Of a DNA stretch of 20,209 bases, positions 2,216-20,209 are shown in pieces (the first letter of the stretch is position 1; every line of letters starts with the position of its first letter). Origin of the DNA: a virus; the IMG/VR virus record IMGVR_UViG_3300013010_000105, positions 1 through 20,209 of that record; one strand, given 5' to 3'. The position numbers were made by a program, and so were the translations under genes. The notes under the pieces were generated by a model that was not told the DNA's origin, searched no databases, and saw only the letters and a list, made by a program, of their open reading frames with translations.

Positions 2216-5200
2216 TTATCGTGCAAGTGAGTTTTTGAAAGGGTTCTCGGCAAAAGCCATGTAGATGTAGGTTTCAGCACCGTTGTAATTTGCCGAAAGA
2301 TTATTTCTCCACTTAAACCCGTTAGATAATAAATCAATACCTTCGTACCCAGCGCCTGTATATGCAGTGCCGGGGGTATTTGGTTGAAACGCACCATCCA
2401 TAACACCAACACCATTTGCCGTTCCTCTAGCGGTGTCCCACAATAACCAATCTCTACCAGCACTTGTAGATCGAATAATTAAAAATGCGGGTCTAAATCC
2501 TAAATACACAAACGGGCCATCAGGAGAATTGTTCCCCACATAGCTACCGAACTTGGAGTACCCTTCTACATCGGCGAAACAGTAGGCAACGTAGGTGTTG
2601 CTTGAAGTATTAACAGCAGGGTGATTAAGCGAAAATACCGTTGATGTAGGCGATGTGTTATTCCACAAACTTACTGCCGAAGAAGCCGCGGCTGTTGAGT
2701 TTAACGCTATGTATTTAGTATTTCCTAAACTAACGTGGTAAGAGTTCCAATCATAACTAGCAGAGTTTCTTGTTTTGACAATCACCATACTTGGCGCAAC
2801 ACCAAGCCCATGCCCCACAGTAGATGGTTGTGTGCTATTACCCGTATAAGTCACAATGCTAAAACCAGCGTCTTGGTTCACCGACCCCACGCTTGCAATA
2901 GTTGCGCCGTTTGTTCCTGCGTCGTTGCTAAAGGCTGTCCCAGCTTTCCAACCCCAGCCAACGTAAGTTCTGCCAGAAGTGTTAACAGCCGCACTAGCCC
3001 CTAACAGGAATCCGTTCTTGTTGAACTGAAGCAAAGAGTTGACATCAGTTACCTCAAGAGCCGTATTGTCGGACTTTAAGTAATCATGTACACCACGCAC
3101 ACTATCAAACAGAGTATGGCTTTGTGCCGCACTTCTTGACTTAATCCACACCAAGTCAGGCGTTTCCAAGTCATTAGTTACTTCAGGAATGTTGAAGCTG
3201 TTAAGTGTCTTGAAGCCCGTTGGAGGTGTATATGCAAATGGGCGTTGACCGAAGTTGGCTGTCCAGCTTGAGTTGTAACCAAAATAAGGAATCCATGTTC
3301 TGGCTGTAGAAACGGCTGTATCAATAGCCCCAGTTCCAGCGGCTGGATTCCCAGAATTCATCCAAGTTCCATTTTTGCCAAACCATATTTTTCCATTTTG
3401 ATATGCAATCATTACAACATCATTTACAGCATAAGAAGTATATGTACCAGCAGAGCTTCCAGTAGTTCCGCTTGCTGTATTGTAATAAGCACCAGTGCGA
3501 GACAAAATTGCTTTATCAACAAAAGCGTAAGAAGCGCCGGGTGCGGAGGATGTTGTTGTGGTTGAGTCAATAATTCCTATGTAAGTGCGAGCCGCATCCA
3601 AAGTTGTGCAAACGCCTTCCCAATACCAACTTGTTGTATCCCCTGCGGCAATTCCGAAAGTTCCCCAAACGTGTGTTGGAATACCCGCTCTTGCGGCAGA
3701 TAAATTTCCATTTGACATGGTTGGGTAATTACCGCCAATAAGATTACTCAATGGATTCAACACCGCATAGTTACCAGCATCCGCATAAGGCGTAGGCGAG
3801 TCCACCATGCTGTCATAGGTCGAACCAGCGGTTAGGCTAATGTTGTTTGGAGTCCAATCATTACCCGCACCACTTTGGTCTGCAACCAAGGTAGCCGTAC
3901 TTGTCGTGTCGCTGAAGTCTAAGTAAAAACCGTTGGTTCCGTATGTACCTGTGTAGGCTTTAGGAACCCAGTAGTTGTTACCATCGTAGTCGCCCAAGTC
4001 CGATGGGGTTAATGCTTGCCCATCGATGAAGTTGACTTCTGCTAGGTAGCCGTCGTGCGTGTCCCCAGAGGACGGAGTTCCAATACCGTGGTAAGCGTTA
4101 TTGTTTATTGCTCCGTCAAGGTTTAATGTTGGATAAGATGCTGTATAAAAAGAAGTTATCTCAGAGCCGTTCACATACATTTTTATTCGGTTGCTTGTAG
4201 TAGCTTGAGTTGTATCAAATGCAATAATAATATGATACCAAGCAGACGGATCTCGGAAAACTTGATTTGTCCTCAAATCAAATTGAGTTCCACTAACGCC
4301 AGTAAAATAGAACTTCCCATCTGCTTCAAATCTAAAAGCAGTGGTGTAATTTGAGGGGGTTCCTGAAATGTAATTTACTACCCCTTGCTTTCCACGCTTG
4401 ACCCACGCACTCCATGTCCAAGTCTTACGGTTTCCAGCAGACGCAGGTGTCCGACTCAGGTAAGCAGACGCACTTGCCCTAAAGCGTAAACTGTTTGAAA
4501 CTTCATAAGTTGTAAACGGTTTCTGAATCTCACCCACCTGCAAGCCACCACCGTTGCCTGTGTACAAATATGTCTTGAAGTAGTCATCTCCACTAACAAT
4601 CGTCGAGTCAGGCAAGTTACCCGTGTGTAGCGCTTTGAAGCCTGTGGGTGGCGTGTGGGCGAATGGGTGTTGACCGAAGTTAAACTCCCATCCGACATCG
4701 TTTGCAGTATCCCTATAAACACTAGCAAGAACCGCCCTAAAAGTTGTTGGTATTGTTTCGTCGGTTGCAACGGCAGTGCCATCTCTGTAAATGGTCATCA
4801 ACCCATTGACTAAATCGTAAGCAAAACCAAGTACCGTTCCAGTAGTGAGTCCACCACCAATTGAGGTATATACACCATTAACAATCTTGTTTAGGCCACC
4901 ATTTACACATTGAATACCGCTGTTTGTACCAGCAAAAGTTTGCGTTGTAGGCACTACTAAACCAATTTCACAAACTACTACTGCACCAGTATTATTACCA
5001 GCCGTAACCTCAAAATAAAATTTGTCTGTTGGCAACGTAATTGTGGCTATTGCAAAGTTGTTTTGTCCTGTGACGGCAGAACGAATCTTCAGATTCCCAT
5101 CTGACAAAGTTGCATTAGCGGATTTGTGCAACGGATTCATCACCGCATAATTTCCACCGCCCGCATAAATCGTGGGTGTGTCTGTCATGCTGTCGTAAGT

Positions 5201-5938
5201 GACACCAGAGGTCAGCGATATGTTGTTAGGTGTCCAGTCATTACCGTTGCCTGATGAGTCAGCAACCAAGGTTGTCGTGTTTGTTGCATCGCTGAAAGGC
5301 AGGTAGAAGCCGTTATTGCCGTATGTGCCCTCGTATTCAACTGGTTGCCATACGCCTGTGTTTTCGTTGTACTCACCAAAGTCTGAGGGGGCTAGGGCTT
5401 GTCCATCAACCCAATAACATTCAGCCATATACCCATCAAAGAAGGCGGTATGGTTATACTGAAAATCTCCAATATCCCCCGTGTAGCCCGACTTATTCCA
5501 TCTTTGAAAAGTAGCGTTTTGTGTCTGTGGCGTAGCGCCCCAAGATAGTGTTTGCTGAACCCCATTTACATACAAACGCATCCTGTCTACGGCAGTTGCA
5601 TTGGTTGTGTCAAAAACTAAAACAATGTGATACCAAGCTGACGGGTCACGATAAACTGCCGCCGTTGATACATATCCCGAGTTATTAAGATACGCAATCC
5701 TTATTTTGTCATCAGTATTAAATTGTAAAAAATCATAGTTTACAGAAGACCAAATAAATTGTTGTACTCCCAACTTTCCTCTTTTACACCAACCAGACCA
5801 TGTGCCTGTAGTTGTGCTTGTTGCAGAGCCTTGCGCTCTACTCAAATAAGCAGACGCACTTGGGCGAAAGCGCAAGGAGTTCTTAATGGTGTAGCCACCA
5901 CCACCTTGCGATCCGAATCCTACGGGTAGTACGCTCAT
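2216..5938 (-). CDS. Giant tail fibre/adhesin: LamG-SPRY-LamG-SPRY-DUF7483-like
   Basis: This is the largest gene here (1240 residues). After a Gly-rich start it has a concanavalin A-like LamG region (about 16-230; NSLRFRPSASAYLSR, DPSAWYHIVLVFDTT, YVNG, DGQALAPSDFGEY). A SPRY-like region follows at about 300-440 (FYFEVTAGN, GFAYDLVNGLMTIYRDG, then PFAHTPPTGFKAL). The whole unit recurs at about 478-900, starting YEVSNSLRFRASASAYLSR and closing PFAYTPPTGFKTL, an offset of 462 residues. From about 929 (LVWIKSRS) to the end lies a third module of the type I know as DUF7483, finishing in YMAFAENPFK. Such domains bind carbohydrate or protein ligands, so this is probably the host-recognition fibre. 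The start overlaps the previous gene by four bases (ATGA) and has a strong AAGGAG site. It lacks the fibre anchor seen in the preceding gene, so it may attach through that protein. Confidence 0.92.
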   Translation of the reverse strand: MSVLPVGFGSQGGGGYTIKNSLRFRPSASAYLSRAQGSATSTTTGTWSGWCKRGKLGVQQFIWSSVNYDFLQFNTDDKIRIAYLNNSGYVSTAAVYRDPSAWYHIVLVFDTTNATAVDRMRLYVNGVQQTLSWGATPQTQNATFQRWNKSGYTGDIGDFQYNHTAFFDGYMAECYWVDGQALAPSDFGEYNENTGVWQPVEYEGTYGNNGFYLPFSDATNTTTLVADSSGNGNDWTPNNISLTSGVTYDSMTDTPTIYAGGGNYAVMNPLHKSANATLSDGNLKIRSAVTGQNNFAIATITLPTDKFYFEVTAGNNTGAVVVCEIGLVVPTTQTFAGTNSGIQCVNGGLNKIVNGVYTSIGGGLTTGTVLGFAYDLVNGLMTIYRDGTAVATDETIPTTFRAVLASVYRDTANDVGWEFNFGQHPFAHTPPTGFKALHTGNLPDSTIVSGDDYFKTYLYTGNGGGLQVGEIQKPFTTYEVSNSLRFRASASAYLSRTPASAGNRKTWTWSAWVKRGKQGVVNYISGTPSNYTTAFRFEADGKFYFTGVSGTQFDLRTNQVFRDPSAWYHIIIAFDTTQATTSNRIKMYVNGSEITSFYTASYPTLNLDGAINNNAYHGIGTPSSGDTHDGYLAEVNFIDGQALTPSDLGDYDGNNYWVPKAYTGTYGTNGFYLDFSDTTSTATLVADQSGAGNDWTPNNISLTAGSTYDSMVDSPTPYADAGNYAVLNPLSNLIGGNYPTMSNGNLSAARAGIPTHVWGTFGIAAGDTTSWYWEGVCTTLDAARTYIGIIDSTTTTSSAPGASYAFVDKAILSRTGAYYNTASGTTGSSAGTYTSYAVNDVVMIAYQNGKIWFGKNGTWMNSGNPAAGTGAIDTAVSTARTWIPYFGYNSSWTANFGQRPFAYTPPTGFKTLNSFNIPEVTNDLETPDLVWIKSRSAAQSHTLFDSVRGVHDYLKSDNTALEVTDVNSLLQFNKNGFLLGASAAVNTSGRTYVGWGWKAGTAFSNDAGTNGATIASVGSVNQDAGFSIVTYTGNSTQPSTVGHGLGVAPSMVIVKTRNSASYDWNSYHVSLGNTKYIALNSTAAASSAVSLWNNTSPTSTVFSLNHPAVNTSSNTYVAYCFADVEGYSKFGSYVGNNSPDGPFVYLGFRPAFLIIRSTSAGRDWLLWDTARGTANGVGVMDGAFQPNTPGTAYTGAGYEGIDLLSNGFKWRNNLSANYNGAETYIYMAFAENPFKNSLAR

Positions 5939-9952: not shown

Positions 9953-10723
9953 TTAACCCCAAAAATTAAGGTCTTTGCCTAAACCCCAAACGTCCCTTGC
10001 AAGGCCAATACCAGCGCTGGCCTCACTAGCTTTCTCAAGTGTTGGGTTGTAGTATTCGGGCGTCGTGGATGTTCCAGATGAGCCAGCAGGATAGCCATAT
10101 ATGTTGCTCAAGAAACTAGACAAGGCTTGTTGCGGTTGACTGTAAGCCGACTGCAAGTATTGCTCTTCAAGTTGACCAACGCCCAACAACTTACTAATGT
10201 CGCCATAATCAGCCGCCGCCATTTGAGGCGCGCCAGTAGCCGCCGCTTCTTGGCGACCGCGCTCTTGAGCGTAGTTTTGGTAGGCCAACTGTCCAGCAGT
10301 ATTTGTCAGGCTTTGAGCCAACTGACCAGCCGCTTGGTTTTGAAACTCACCCATCGCACCAGAGCCGTATCGACCAGCGCGTGAAGCCTGTGAGCCAATG
10401 TTGCCAATCGCTTGGTTAAATGCGCTCGTAGCCTGTTGTGCCGCAGGCTGGAAAGCGCCTTGGAAGAACGGGTTCCCAGATAAGTAATCACCCTGAACCG
10501 TCCCCAACTGCTGTGTTTGAGCCGCGCCCAACAAAGGAGAACCTTGCATAGCGCGGTTTTCTATCGCTTGCATGGCCTGTTGAGTAACGTCTGATGGCCC
10601 TACTACTGGTGTACCGCCAGCCTGATATAGGCGTTGGGATTCAGCTAGTCCATAGTCAAGATACGGCTTTACACTTCCGCTTGGCTCTGATGTAGTTGTA
10701 ACGGTTTGGTAGTTGACTGCCAT
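9953..10723 (-). CDS. Putative internal virion / ejection protein (SGRYGSGA family)
   Basis: This 256-residue protein is rich in Gln, Ala, Gly and Ser. The central part contains GNPFFQGAFQ, then GNIGSQASRAGRYGSGAMGE (about residues 108-127), then AYQNYAQERGRQE, then a GVGQLEEQYLQ segment. I recall this order as a recurrent protein next to ejection proteins in aquatic podoviruses. It is probably helical and lacks a signal peptide. The gene starts a new translational unit after a 66-bp gap with a promoter-like sequence and has a strong AAAGGAA ribosome-binding site. Its stop is three bases before the next ejection-type gene. It could be the smallest of three ejection proteins, or a structural component of the core; the sequence does not decide. 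Confidence 0.7.
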   Translation of the reverse strand: MAVNYQTVTTTSEPSGSVKPYLDYGLAESQRLYQAGGTPVVGPSDVTQQAMQAIENRAMQGSPLLGAAQTQQLGTVQGDYLSGNPFFQGAFQPAAQQATSAFNQAIGNIGSQASRAGRYGSGAMGEFQNQAAGQLAQSLTNTAGQLAYQNYAQERGRQEAAATGAPQMAAADYGDISKLLGVGQLEEQYLQSAYSQPQQALSSFLSNIYGYPAGSSGTSTTPEYYNPTLEKASEASAGIGLARDVWGLGKDLNFWG

Positions 10724-14946: not shown

Positions 14947-15894
14947 TTATGACAAGTCAGCAATGATGCCGTGTGCGGCCTCGTTCTTAACTTCCAAAGT
15001 GGCTTCACAGATCAACTGAGTCTTCTCAGAGTCACCAGTTTTAGCCAATTCGTTGGTTGAGAAAGGACGCAGGTAGGCAATTGCCAGCATATCTGGGTCG
15101 ATAACAAAAGCCGTCTCATCACAAGAGTTGGCGGCGTTCATAAAACGATTAGGAACGACGGACATCGAGCCGAAATCGCTGAGGTAAACGTCAGCCGCGC
15201 CGATGATGGTCGTTGCTTCGTTGCTAGGAGCCATGTAACGCTGTGCGGCGATACCAGCAAAGGCAGAGACCAACTGCTTGTGAGCAGGGTTGACCATCAG
15301 CACCTTGGGGTTGCCACCAGACTGGTAGACTTCCTTTACAACAGTCTTGAGGGTAGCTTCGTCAAAAGTGCGGTCAGTACCGTCAACGCGAGCAGTAGTG
15401 CCATTAGCACCAGCCACGCCAGAAGTACCGAAATCACCGTTGGTGTTCAACCATGACTGCAAACCACCCATTGTGCGAGCAGTAGAACTGTTGCCGTTTG
15501 ATGCAACTTGGTTGCTCAATAGGGTCAATTCCATGTCGCGCTTGACTTCGCTAGAGGCTTTAGCCAACTGGTAAGCCTTTTCAGACTTGCGACCAGCTTT
15601 GTCCACAGCTTCCAACGTCCCGGCGATTTGCACGGTCTTTTGGAAAATTTGGGTCCGGTTGCCAGCGCGGGTCGTGACGCCCATAGTAGCGGAAGTCGCA
15701 TCTGCACCTTCAACAGCGGCGTTGCTTAGTGACGCATCTGCGAGTGAGTCTACTTGCCACTCATGGTAGACAGCCGTAGCCTTAGTCTTGCCAATGGAAG
15801 ACATAAGAGGCGTGTCAGTGGGGCTGATGTTGTAGATAATGTCTGACAGGTCTTCACGCTGACCGATAGCGGTATATGTTTGATAGGTAGCCAT
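14947..15894 (-). CDS. Major capsid protein, SU10-like
   Basis: The 315-residue protein begins MATYQTYTAIGQREDLSDII, followed by YNISPTDTPLMSSIGKTKA and HEWQVDSLADAS, the N-terminal pattern of the SU10 major capsid family (HK97 fold). Later blocks include the RTQIFQKTVQIAGTLEAVDK region, LLSNQVASNGNSSTARTMGG, PKVLMVNPAHKQLVSAF and a C-terminal QLICEATLEVKNEAAHGII strand. It forms the icosahedral shell. A good ribosome-binding site (TTGGAG) precedes the ATG. It follows the scaffold gene by 18 bases and is followed by a strong terminator, as expected of the most highly expressed virion gene. No protease gene is visible in the window, so maturation by scaffold release without cleavage is likely, but this is inference. 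Confidence 0.93.
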   Translation of the reverse strand: MATYQTYTAIGQREDLSDIIYNISPTDTPLMSSIGKTKATAVYHEWQVDSLADASLSNAAVEGADATSATMGVTTRAGNRTQIFQKTVQIAGTLEAVDKAGRKSEKAYQLAKASSEVKRDMELTLLSNQVASNGNSSTARTMGGLQSWLNTNGDFGTSGVAGANGTTARVDGTDRTFDEATLKTVVKEVYQSGGNPKVLMVNPAHKQLVSAFAGIAAQRYMAPSNEATTIIGAADVYLSDFGSMSVVPNRFMNAANSCDETAFVIDPDMLAIAYLRPFSTNELAKTGDSEKTQLICEATLEVKNEAAHGIIADLS

Positions 15895-16947: not shown

Positions 16948-17178
16948 TTACAAAATCTTCCACTTCTTGTCCTTAATCTTGGAGTCAGCCGCTAGGCTTT
17001 CAATATGTCCCATGATTAAGTCAAGAGTCTTGATGACGGTGTAAGCACGTTCCCTTGCCTCTACATCGCCCTCATTAGTGCTTATTATGTCACTAATCTT
17101 TGAGTTTTTCAAATCATTGATGACTTCTGTGAAAAACTCGTCCTCTAGCAGTAGTTGAGCGCGTTCGCTTTTTAGCAT
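16948..17178 (-). CDS. Small conserved head-region protein, unknown function
   Basis: The frame could start at 17229, but I place the start at the ATG at 17178. That ATG overlaps the upstream stop by one base (TGATG) and has a strong AAAGAGG ribosome-binding site, and the preceding 17 codons would overlap the upstream gene. The 76-residue protein starts MLKSERAQLLLEDEFFTEVI, continues helical with ARERAYTVIKTLDLIMGHIE (about residues 38-57), and ends in a basic tail (KIKDKKWKIL). Short helical proteins of this kind commonly lie between portal and scaffold in aquatic podoviruses. The function is unknown; a helper of portal or capsid assembly is a guess. Confidence 0.8.
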   Translation of the reverse strand: MLKSERAQLLLEDEFFTEVINDLKNSKISDIISTNEGDVEARERAYTVIKTLDLIMGHIESLAADSKIKDKKWKIL

Positions 17179-18860
17179 CAATCCTCTTTCAGAAACAGGC
17201 CAGTAACAAAAAACTGCACAGAGCGCCACAAAAATGTTTTAGCTGTTTTGGCATTGCGCTTTGTCCCCGTGGCAAACCGAACAAAGTCCCTAAACTCGTC
17301 GTAATACTGGTGAGCCTCGCCAGACTTAATTGCGCGATTGCCGTAAAATCTGTATCCCCTACGGATTGATTCACCCCACCAGCGGTTATGCAAGGTCTTA
17401 ACGCACCACACAACAGCCTTTTGTTTTTCTCGCTTTGTAAAGTTCCCGCTGTTTACGGCGTGCGTAGCTATAACACAACTGCCATCGCCATCGCCGCCGC
17501 CATCCCCAGAGGGCGCATCTACTGCATCAGGAGCCGTGGCTCCATCTGGGCCGTGACCCGAGCCTGATGCGGCGGCTTGACCTCCTATGCTGACATTGCC
17601 GCTTGATGCCGAGGCGTCCGCCGCCGCGTTTGCCGCCGCCGCCTCAGCGTAAGCCGCTTCAGCCGCCGCCTGTGACGCCGCGTCTGCCGCCGCCGCATTA
17701 GCGTGTCCCTCGCCGTATGCGATTGGATTGCCGCTACTATCAGTAACAACACCCCCAGAGCCGTCGGTGACAGAACCGCCGTAGGGTGCATCTGTGACGC
17801 CAGCCGCCGCTGTCTCTGATTCCGTCCAAGCATTCAAAGCGTTTTGAAGTGATTGCGCTTGCTGACTAGCAATTGCGGCAGGTGTACTTGCCTCTAAGTT
17901 GGCAATCAAAGCGCCTATTGGGTCTTGCGTGTTTAAGTTGGCTGATAACGTAGCCGCATAAGACGCAGGAACACCCATCTCTAGCGCAACGGATTGAACA
18001 GCCTCGCCCTTAGTCATACCAGAGGCAACATTAGACTCAATAGCATTGCTAATTGATGCCGCCGTAACCCCATATTCGTTAGCCGAATATGAGTTAGAGG
18101 TTTGACCAAGTTGGGCCGTCATTACTGCGTCTGTAATTGCTTGAACGGACGGGTCTGATACCGCGTCCATATAACCCACCATAGCGGCAGAGTCAGCAAA
18201 GTTACTAGCAAAACCAAGCGCGTTCTCCAAGCCTTCAGGCGTCTGTCCAAACGCCCCCATAAGCGCAGACGTGACTGGGTCAGCGGCTACGTTAGGCTGA
18301 CCGCCCCAAGCCTCCATGTCCGCTTGCAAAGCGTTTGCGGCTGTTGCTCCGCTATACCCTTGTGCCGCCCCAAGCGCAAGACCAGCAAATGGAACCGCCC
18401 TACCAAACAACGACATAACGCTGTTAGGTACTTGGTTAAACAACCCAGAATACGGGTCATCCATCCACGCTTGGTTTCCAACATTACCAACCGCGCTCTC
18501 GCCCTCGCCGCCGTAAAGGTCTCCAGTCGAGATTTTGTTTACAACTTCAGATGGCAGTGCTTTTTGAAAACTAGCCAAATCAAAGTCGCCTTGCTTAAAC
18601 CAAGACGGCGCAACGTTGCCGCCTAAATTCGAGCCAACTCCAGCAACGCTAGAACCATCATCAATAAATCTTCCAGCCCCATAACTACCTCCTGATTGTG
18701 TGAATGTCTGTGGAGTATATTGGCTTTGGATTGCCGCTAATATAGGGTCTAACCCTAATGCCTGTGGGTTCTGGCCTTGCACCGTCTCAGCACCTGCCAT
18801 CGGGTTGGTTGTACCACCTGTGACAGTTACAGGAAAATATGATGCAAAGTTATCTGCCAT
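17178..18860 (-). CDS. Ala/Ser/Gly-rich protein with C-terminal CFI-box-like domain
   Basis: I start it at the ATG at 18860 (MADNFASYFPVTVTGG, 560 residues), four bases after the portal stop; an in-frame TTG at 18881 would overlap the portal. The N-terminal 380 residues are small-residue-rich and mostly helical, with a hydrophobic Gly/Ala stretch near VPFAGLALGAAQGYSG. Residues about 384-421 are an almost pure Ala-rich run, followed by a Gly/Asp/Ser linker. The last 100 residues begin at Cys462 (SCVIATHAVNSG) and continue NRWWGESIRRGYRFYGNRAI and YYDEFRDFVRF. This resembles the CFI-box C-terminal domain (CFIATA, then FRD) of bacterial and phage proteins. Function is unknown. Its place after the portal suggests a virion protein, perhaps carried inside the head or ejected (inference). 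Confidence 0.78.
   Translation of the reverse strand: MADNFASYFPVTVTGGTTNPMAGAETVQGQNPQALGLDPILAAIQSQYTPQTFTQSGGSYGAGRFIDDGSSVAGVGSNLGGNVAPSWFKQGDFDLASFQKALPSEVVNKISTGDLYGGEGESAVGNVGNQAWMDDPYSGLFNQVPNSVMSLFGRAVPFAGLALGAAQGYSGATAANALQADMEAWGGQPNVAADPVTSALMGAFGQTPEGLENALGFASNFADSAAMVGYMDAVSDPSVQAITDAVMTAQLGQTSNSYSANEYGVTAASISNAIESNVASGMTKGEAVQSVALEMGVPASYAATLSANLNTQDPIGALIANLEASTPAAIASQQAQSLQNALNAWTESETAAAGVTDAPYGGSVTDGSGGVVTDSSGNPIAYGEGHANAAAADAASQAAAEAAYAEAAAANAAADASASSGNVSIGGQAAASGSGHGPDGATAPDAVDAPSGDGGGDGDGSCVIATHAVNSGNFTKREKQKAVVWCVKTLHNRWWGESIRRGYRFYGNRAIKSGEAHQYYDEFRDFVRFATGTKRNAKTAKTFLWRSVQFFVTGLFLKED
17610..17710 (-). repeat. GCN-rich low-complexity tract coding for polyalanine
   Basis: The plus strand shows repeated GCCGCC runs, and on the coding strand these are mostly GCG and GCA alanine codons. 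The tract encodes the Ala-rich segment just before the C-terminal domain of the 560-residue protein. Such tracts can vary in length by slippage. Confidence 0.7.
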
Positions 18861-18864
18861 AGTA

Positions 18865-20209
18865 TTAGCCCGGAATCTCAACGTTAGAAGTAATGCCAGC
18901 GGCGACCTTAGAAGCCTTTATCTGCACTTCAGCCTCGAACTCTTGTTGCTTCATTTGCAGTTCAGCCACTAGCTTCTGGCGGTCAAAGTCCATCTGCGCG
19001 GCAAACTTCTCACGTTGGAGTTGCAAGTCAGCCGCCGCCTTTTCGCGTGCCAACTGAATGTCAGCCTGTGCCTTGGCTTGCTGGGTTTGCAGGTCAGCCT
19101 GCGCTTTAGCCTGTGACGCCTGAATATCAGCCTGCATCTTAGCCATAGCCGCCTGAGCCATTGGGTCGGCCTGCTGTTGCTGTGGAGGAGGGTTCTGCAA
19201 TTGCTGATCCATCTCTGGAGGGATAGCCTTATAGAACTCAGCAGAGTCCTTGAAGCCTGCCGCCTCAACCATGCGACCAAGCGTGTTGCGGTACTGGGCA
19301 GGGCTGACGTAAGGGTTAGCCATTCCAAACGCACCAAGCAACTGCTCTTGCTTCTGCACAATCATACTCAGCATCGCCATTTGCTCTTGACGGTTGCCAG
19401 CGCCTAAGCCAACGTTCACAGATATATCGTACTCGGTCGCCCAAGTGCGCGGGTCGATGGGGATGTACTCGTTACGCAAACGAATGATGCGGTCTTTGTT
19501 CTGGTACTTAGTAACCAAGTGCATGATGCCTTTGAACAAGTCCTTAACACCCGTCTCAGCAAAGATGCGCGCAACCATCTCAATCTTGCCAGCACCAGCT
19601 TGTTGCATGGAGGCGACAGCCGCCGCAGTAACGTTTTGCAGGATGGCTGGGTCTAAGCCCTGAGACGCATCAGAAACACCTGTGCGCTTCGCCGCTGTCT
19701 GGTCTAAGTACTCCAACATCGGGAATGACTGAGACGCAATAGACTGCACATTTAACTGCTGTACAGCGCCCTGTGACTTGGCGCGAATAACGCCGCCTGC
19801 CGTACTGGTCAATAGGTCATCAAGGTTGACTTGACCTTCAACCGCCACCACTCGGGCATTGTTGGTCAAATACAGGTTATCCAACATCTGACGCAGGATA
19901 GTCGTCTTGATTAGCTGAATGTCTGTGGTGCGGTCAGCAAATGACTGCCCAAAGAACTTGTGAGGGATTGGAATCGGGCAAATGGAGTAGAACGGCACAT
20001 AGTCCGTTTCTTCTTCGCTCAGAATTTCGTTGCCAGCGTAAAAGACTTGGCGCAACTCAGCAATGCCATCATCATCCATGTCAGCCCGGATGTAGCACTC
20101 GTAGACCTCAATGTCCTGCATCGCAGGGTCAAGGCTTTGGTTGTCTTCAGGCTGTTCGCTCTGCTCATAGCGGATAACGCGCTCTGGGTTGTAGGTCAAC
20201 GTGTCGCCA
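18865..20209 (-). CDS. Portal protein, SU10-like (partial, N-terminus off the window)
   Basis: The frame is open to the right edge, so at least 448 residues of the C-terminal part are present; the first possible internal start is only a TTG at 20199. Diagnostic stretches are YIRADMDDDGIAELRQVFYA, PIPIPHKFFGQSFADRTTDI, and QLIKTTILRQMLDNLYLTNN. GVSDASQGLDPAILQNVTAA and MIVQKQEQLLGAFG are also found in podovirus portals of the SU10/P22-related group. The dodecameric portal sits at one capsid vertex and is the channel for DNA packaging and exit. The last 100 residues form a hendecad coiled coil (listed separately), probably the barrel or a tail into the capsid. The next gene starts four bases after the stop. 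Confidence 0.9.
   Translation of the reverse strand, partial: GDTLTYNPERVIRYEQSEQPEDNQSLDPAMQDIEVYECYIRADMDDDGIAELRQVFYAGNEILSEEETDYVPFYSICPIPIPHKFFGQSFADRTTDIQLIKTTILRQMLDNLYLTNNARVVAVEGQVNLDDLLTSTAGGVIRAKSQGAVQQLNVQSIASQSFPMLEYLDQTAAKRTGVSDASQGLDPAILQNVTAAAVASMQQAGAGKIEMVARIFAETGVKDLFKGIMHLVTKYQNKDRIIRLRNEYIPIDPRTWATEYDISVNVGLGAGNRQEQMAMLSMIVQKQEQLLGAFGMANPYVSPAQYRNTLGRMVEAAGFKDSAEFYKAIPPEMDQQLQNPPPQQQQADPMAQAAMAKMQADIQASQAKAQADLQTQQAKAQADIQLAREKAAADLQLQREKFAAQMDFDRQKLVAELQMKQQEFEAEVQIKASKVAAGITSNVEIPG
18913..19143 (-). repeat. Seven 11-residue (33-bp) repeats in the portal C-terminus
   Basis: Seven consecutive 11-residue units, from AKMQADIQASQ through AKAQADLQTQQ, EKAAADLQLQR and QKLVAELQMKQ to QEFEAEVQIKA, keep the same register. 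Hydrophobic positions recur at fixed places and Ala, Gln and charged residues fill the rest. An 11-residue period is the hendecad form of a coiled coil, so a long straight helix bundle is expected. Confidence 0.85.

Follow-up and report, generated by a model that had tools for sequence, protein, structure and literature searches.

The window analyzed here, that is, the whole stretch of 20,209 nucleotides, is a 20.2-kb IMG/VR fragment of a marine phage, with an SU10-type head module encoded on the minus strand. The portal, capsid, and adaptor proteins match PF23899, PF17236, and PF24175, respectively, well above cut-off, which identifies the head of this virus as SU10-type. The order of the minus-strand genes is portal, a gene encoding a 560-aa protein (hereafter X), a 76-aa gene, scaffold, capsid, and adaptor, with a nozzle-like protein encoded further on. 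The features of this region are as follows.

18865..20199, minus strand: SU10-type portal, truncated by the edge of the window (L001: 703 aa)
17178..18860, minus strand: 560-aa gene X in the portal-X-scaffold slot, defined by its open reading frame and neighbors
18681..18860, minus strand: X residues 1-60, N-terminal stretch, conserved (identity 95% in L242, 91% in L248)
17478..18680, minus strand: X residues 61-461, fast-diverging acidic Ala/Gly/Ser-rich spacer
18363..18422, minus strand: X residues 147-166, Gly-rich hydrophobic segment (KD19 1.48)
17607..17702, minus strand: X residues 387-418, Ala-rich run, 22 of 32 Ala
17478..17513, minus strand: X residues 450-461, Gly/Asp linker PSGDGGGDGDGS
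17181..17477, minus strand: X residues 462-560, the T1 module (CVIATHAV...WWGE..RRGYR...), five predicted helices, net basic
17176..17180, minus strand: TGATG, the stop of X overlapping the ATG of the next gene
16948..17178, minus strand: small 76-aa gene between X and scaffold, with relatives of 50-58% identity in L005 and L025
15913..16893, minus strand: head scaffolding protein (phrog_3927)
14947..15894, minus strand: SU10-type major capsid protein

The open reading frame of X extends from the ATG at 18860 to the TGA at 17180-17178, and the plus strand at these coordinates is full of stops; the 560-residue frame that an earlier note on this DNA had reported is real but lies on the minus strand. 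X is a genuine gene rather than an artefact because homologues are present in L005 and L009, with the module 79-80% identical and a dN/dS of about 0.10. The peptides quoted in the note are encoded as well (SCVIATHAV from residue 461, NRWWGESIRRG from residue 492, and YYDEFRDFVRF from residue 519), as are the Ala run and the Gly/Asp linker that it had described. Its placement of X directly after the portal, in the slot between portal and scaffold, holds, with the correction that the 76-aa gene (17178-16948) intervenes before the scaffold. Residues 1-457 consist of 20% Ala and 13% Gly and contain only 6 K/R vs 43 D/E, whereas residues 462-560 contain 19 K/R vs 8 D/E (+11). The Ala run was matched in none of 2000 shuffles of residues 1-461.

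X has no match in Pfam, NCBIfam, PHROGs, or PDB sequences and, as suspected earlier, is not a standard podovirus head gene. A prohead protease is the usual gene in the portal-protease-capsid order; no protease profile in Pfam, NCBIfam, or PHROG matched X, and neither did any ejection-protein PHROG. Elsewhere in the window, a 256-aa protein (9953-10723) weakly matches a DNA ejection PHROG and resembles Octadecabacter virus 2 gp18, the chaperone-annotated C-terminal end of which is absent in the window protein.

The 99-residue C-terminal module, denoted T1, has no profile match in Pfam, NCBIfam, PHROG, or PDB either, and none of these collections places the C terminus in an unrelated known family. 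Relatives of T1 in viral contigs numbered 7 with a two-sequence profile and about 205 IMG/VR stretches with a seven-sequence profile; 80 of the 205 stretches were fetched, and 84 T1 loci were read in all. In each of the 84, T1 forms the C-terminal end of the protein, and in 71 of 83, at least 75% of the 12 residues preceding the T1 cysteine are G, S, D, N, A, or T. Every member opens with CVIATH or CVVATH, and 21 diverse members share 25 invariant and 15 nearly invariant columns, including C, ATHA, WC, LH, W.GE, R, GY, and EF. The module is basic in all 47 sequences compared, and each family of N-terminal parts is acidic. The median dN/dS is 0.05 for the module vs 0.21 for the rest of the protein, with the lower value in the module in 14 of 15 pairs. 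Relative to the remainder, T1 evolves roughly fourfold more slowly and, as judged from these alignments, is a discrete unit under strong purifying selection. The last helix is moderately hydrophobic, and because its mean KD19 is only 1.0, no membrane insertion is predicted. Searches of isolated phages by tblastn (E 1) with three T1 queries yielded no T1. Among 385 alphaproteobacterial genomes, T1 was present in one, the MAG that had itself supplied the sequence; a cellular origin was rejected on this ground, and the sequence was taken to be a viral contig.

Comparison of close relatives shows replacement of the module within an otherwise conserved locus. In L242, the DNA is 94% identical to the window upstream and 97% downstream of X; residues 1-60 of X are nearly unchanged, identity then falls, and a T3-like module, T3 being another type, takes the place of T1 (20.7 bits with the T3 profile). 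Likewise, L248-L250, with portal and capsid identities of 93-95%, carry a T3-like end instead of T1 (T3 profile 14.4 bits in L248), and in L244 and L251, which belong to the window lineage, X has no module. In freshwater relatives (portal identity about 70%), no module was found in the longest open reading frame of the slot, the only one considered, and the gene may be split. In L258-L319, also with portals of about 70% identity, the C terminus of the slot protein (SINDVISGIQNQYGQ..SMG) resembles X residues 36-60, as if the conserved N-terminal stretch of X formed the end of another protein.

Gene-order comparison, which the earlier note had proposed, revealed the same portal-X-scaffold slot with varying ends in HMO-2011-type phages. 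The end is T3 in HMO-2011 gp49 and HTVC033P gp76, T4 in CRP-1 gp49, CFI-like in CRP-345 gp62, a genuine CFI-box in ctYwJ313 (NF041770, 57.4 bits, cut-off 40), and T1 in L007, L008, L015, and L022, and CRP-9, CRP-207, CRP-212, and CRP-3 have no such end. Roseobacter phage CRP-1 gp49, a hypothetical protein of 715 aa, resembles X in its post-portal position and its profile-related C-terminal module but has an N-terminal part of another family (the HMO-2011 gp49 type) and a more hydrophobic module end. Puniceispirillum phage HMO-2011 gp49 (762 aa) occupies the same slot, and its T3 has the same predicted fold as T1; a second protein of this phage, gp25 (706 aa), is Gln/Ala-rich and ends in a further type, T2. 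Both HMO-2011 proteins differ from X in their N-terminal parts and module types, and at the sequence level neither T3 nor T2 matches T1. On these genome comparisons, the protein encoded between portal and scaffold ranks with the most variable ones in genomes that are otherwise nearly identical, a variability that concerns abundant marine phages of both the HMO-2011 type and the SU10-type group of the window. The described anatomy of X and the swapping of its module are very probably correct.

The location of X between portal and scaffold, together with a basic module that could hold DNA, would suit an assembly or packaging tag that places X inside the head by attaching to the packaged DNA or to a partner in the virion or scaffold. 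However, portal, scaffold, and capsid remain nearly unchanged where the module has been swapped or has disappeared, and relatives whose portals are 94% identical lack it; a head partner is therefore unlikely. Given that T1 also occurs on a tail-side protein (in L012; see below), we consider such a tag improbable.

T1 was found on about ten unrelated N-terminal families, comprising podovirus head and post-nozzle proteins and a T4-like baseplate protein. The largest cluster of N-terminal parts has 51 members, and four others have 3 to 10 each. Several further sequences stand alone, without similarity to the others at E 1e-6, two of which (L037 and L048) are shortened or modified versions of sequences in other clusters. 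In the commonest carrier family, cl0, the gene follows the nozzle gene, and the ends again vary: T1 in 64 loci, T3 (LCTAY...GYRxWAxP...) in 21 distinct sequences, T2 (CWVAREVYG) in L110, and no module at all in, for example, Octadecabacter Antarctic DB virus 2 gp17. In the T4-like myovirus L012, T1 resides on a DUF4815 baseplate-region protein, and in the module tree this copy groups with those of the window and other podoviruses (95/78 support, long branch). At this locus (L012, 6254-12597), two adjacent genes together match phrog_358, a single long family, and the first of them ends in T1; the module would appear to sit at a break in a baseplate-region protein. In a cyanomyovirus, T3 is attached to a protein encoded beside a fiber gene and is followed by an extra hydrophobic tail. 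In cyanophage SynMITS9220M01, the protein beside a fiber gene (L207, 6669-8519) consists of a Gly-rich part, a long proline run, an arginine run, T3, and a hydrophobic end.

Because the module occurs on head-slot, post-nozzle, and tail-side proteins of both podoviruses and myoviruses, the shared partner is likely to be a structure of the host. The main rival to contact with the envelope is an injected effector, a module delivered with the DNA that would act in the cell, in counter-defense, takeover, or exclusion; its carrier would be conserved and the C-terminal ends variable. The conserved N terminus and variable C terminus of X in near-identical genomes would agree with this, as would the accessory presence of the module and the cl0 slot. 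In SU10, the ejection proteins gp20-24 are encoded after the nozzle gp17 and needle gp18 (PMC9509320), and by analogy ejection is plausible for the cl0 carriers. X itself may be packaged or ejected, as the earlier note had suggested, a possibility to which its position and these comparisons point. In addition, in L048 (3-956), an intein-like Hint domain ends immediately before T1 (VVHN-KGGGGGG-CVIATHAV), so that release of the module by self-cleavage could occur. In these respects, the X family recalls polymorphic toxins, which combine a conserved N-terminal part with an exchangeable C-terminal end, sometimes preceded by an autoprocessing domain. Unlike polymorphic toxins, however, the modules reside on phage structural-region genes and seem to have one fold, which is atypical of effector sets; no toxin family matched in Pfam or PHROGs, nor was there a nuclease profile match; the Hint domain was found once; and the baseplate-region carrier in L012 is not known to enter the cytoplasm. 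We thus regard an injected effector as rather unlikely. The earlier description of the end domain as detachable is apt in the evolutionary sense, the module being exchanged as a unit, and extends to the autocleaving-type Hint of L048, but not beyond that.

The relationship of T1 to the CFI-box, which the earlier note had suggested, stands as a lead, given the genuine CFI-box in the same slot of ctYwJ313 and the profile links of T2 and T3 described below, but not as membership. At E 10, the NF041770 profile (CFI_box_CTERM; cut-off 40 bits) matched neither the whole protein nor the domain by itself, nor the relative from L003. T1 shares with this domain the C-terminal position behind a flexible Gly-rich linker and the opening Cys-hydrophobic-Ile/Val-Ala/Thr-Thr motif, C-[FVYW]-[IVL]-[AT]-T; the bacterial members open with CF[ILV][AT][TS]A. 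It differs in its length (99 residues vs 69 positions), in having WWGE..RRGYR where CFI_box_CTERM has YY..SP, and in being strongly basic, whereas bacterial CFI-boxes are not, the canonical ones often being followed by a hydrophobic segment and a basic end. Direct comparison of T1 with CFI profiles aligned just 8-12 columns (12 in the default local hhalign run); homology across the full domain is suggested through indirect links between the module types.

The links among modules come from the default local hhalign run with 60 column-shuffled decoys, in which T1 was connected to T4 (probability 84, E 7e-6), T2 to CFI (probability 93, E 2.7e-7), and T3 to CFI (probability 50, E 1.6e-4), scores that no decoy reached; a global-style setting, with T4 not included, gave weaker links and none for T1. 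Two T2 ends also match NF041770 itself, with E-values of 2e-4 and 7e-4 that fall short of the curated cut-off. Modeled separately, T1 and T3 (pLDDT 82 and 94) each comprise five helices in the same order and have common BFVD matches (S4S2E0, A0A516LWU8, A0A6J5LIK6_2, A0A6J7XN45, and A0A6J5LKU4), so they are predicted to adopt the same fold. By equal length and context only, S4S2E0 is identified with HMO-2011 gp49 and the best T1 match, A0A646QVK5, with CRP-1 gp49. Foldseek found no significant match for the module among PDB folds; Borrelia surface proteins, considered as fold relatives (VIA-align, Z 3.7-5.4), were dismissed as within chance for helical bundles. The profile links, the fold models, and the common viral-structure matches unite T1, T2, T3, T4, and the CFI-box in one superfamily, to which T1 is accordingly assigned on predicted grounds without being filed as a CFI-box member. 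No paper naming the CFI-box was found in the literature. Exchangeable C-terminal modules as such are known; what is new is the fold family on phage structural-region proteins, and the libraries searched do not contain T1. Because neither T1 nor T3 matches a family library, annotation misses these ends.

The conserved cysteine just after a flexible linker and the C-terminal position are also what would be expected of an intramolecular chaperone or self-cleaving end, which folds its carrier and is then removed, as with S74; moreover, the neighboring slot of Octadecabacter virus 2 encodes gp18, annotated as tail spike/chaperone. However, there is no S74 or peptidase profile match, the carriers look like spacers rather than trimeric fibers, and T1 and T2 have few residues in common beyond the Cys motif, which makes this very improbable and the least likely of the alternatives.

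Taken together, the gene after the portal points to an exchangeable, previously undescribed host-contact or injected part, and X is polymorphic and probably associated with the virion; we found no virion proteome in the literature for any module-carrying phage. The best reading, to which we assign a probability of roughly one half, is an exchangeable end module that contacts the host envelope or is delivered. X consists of a short conserved N terminus, a long acidic Ala/Gly spacer, and an exchangeable helical module on a flexible Gly/Asp linker, with the basic helical module as the putative working end. As the genome is delivered, the spacer would display this end toward a target on the host that viruses of differing virion type have in common; the anionic envelope, whether membrane or LPS, is the likeliest such target. 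The exchange of module types would track the host. Envelope contact taken by itself is a tentative proposal; we infer this target solely from the spread of the module over head-region and tail-region proteins, and the basic charge of T1 fits DNA binding as well. With slightly less than even confidence, T1, T2, T3, T4, and the CFI-box may represent an exchange system shared by marine phages of different morphotypes, in which the swapped ends of head, ejection-region, and tail proteins serve as interchangeable host-facing or injected heads, that is, a polymorphic virion system outside the tail fibers, with the same fold used at the membrane by bacterial CFI-box proteins. Should these ends determine contact with the host or be active inside the cell, they would be a source of host specificity or counter-defense. 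The CFI-box, a bacterial C-terminal domain, also gains a second, experimentally tractable setting in cultured phages. The tail region of the window (2216-5938) additionally encodes a 1240-aa protein of two repeated halves with a LamG-type look.
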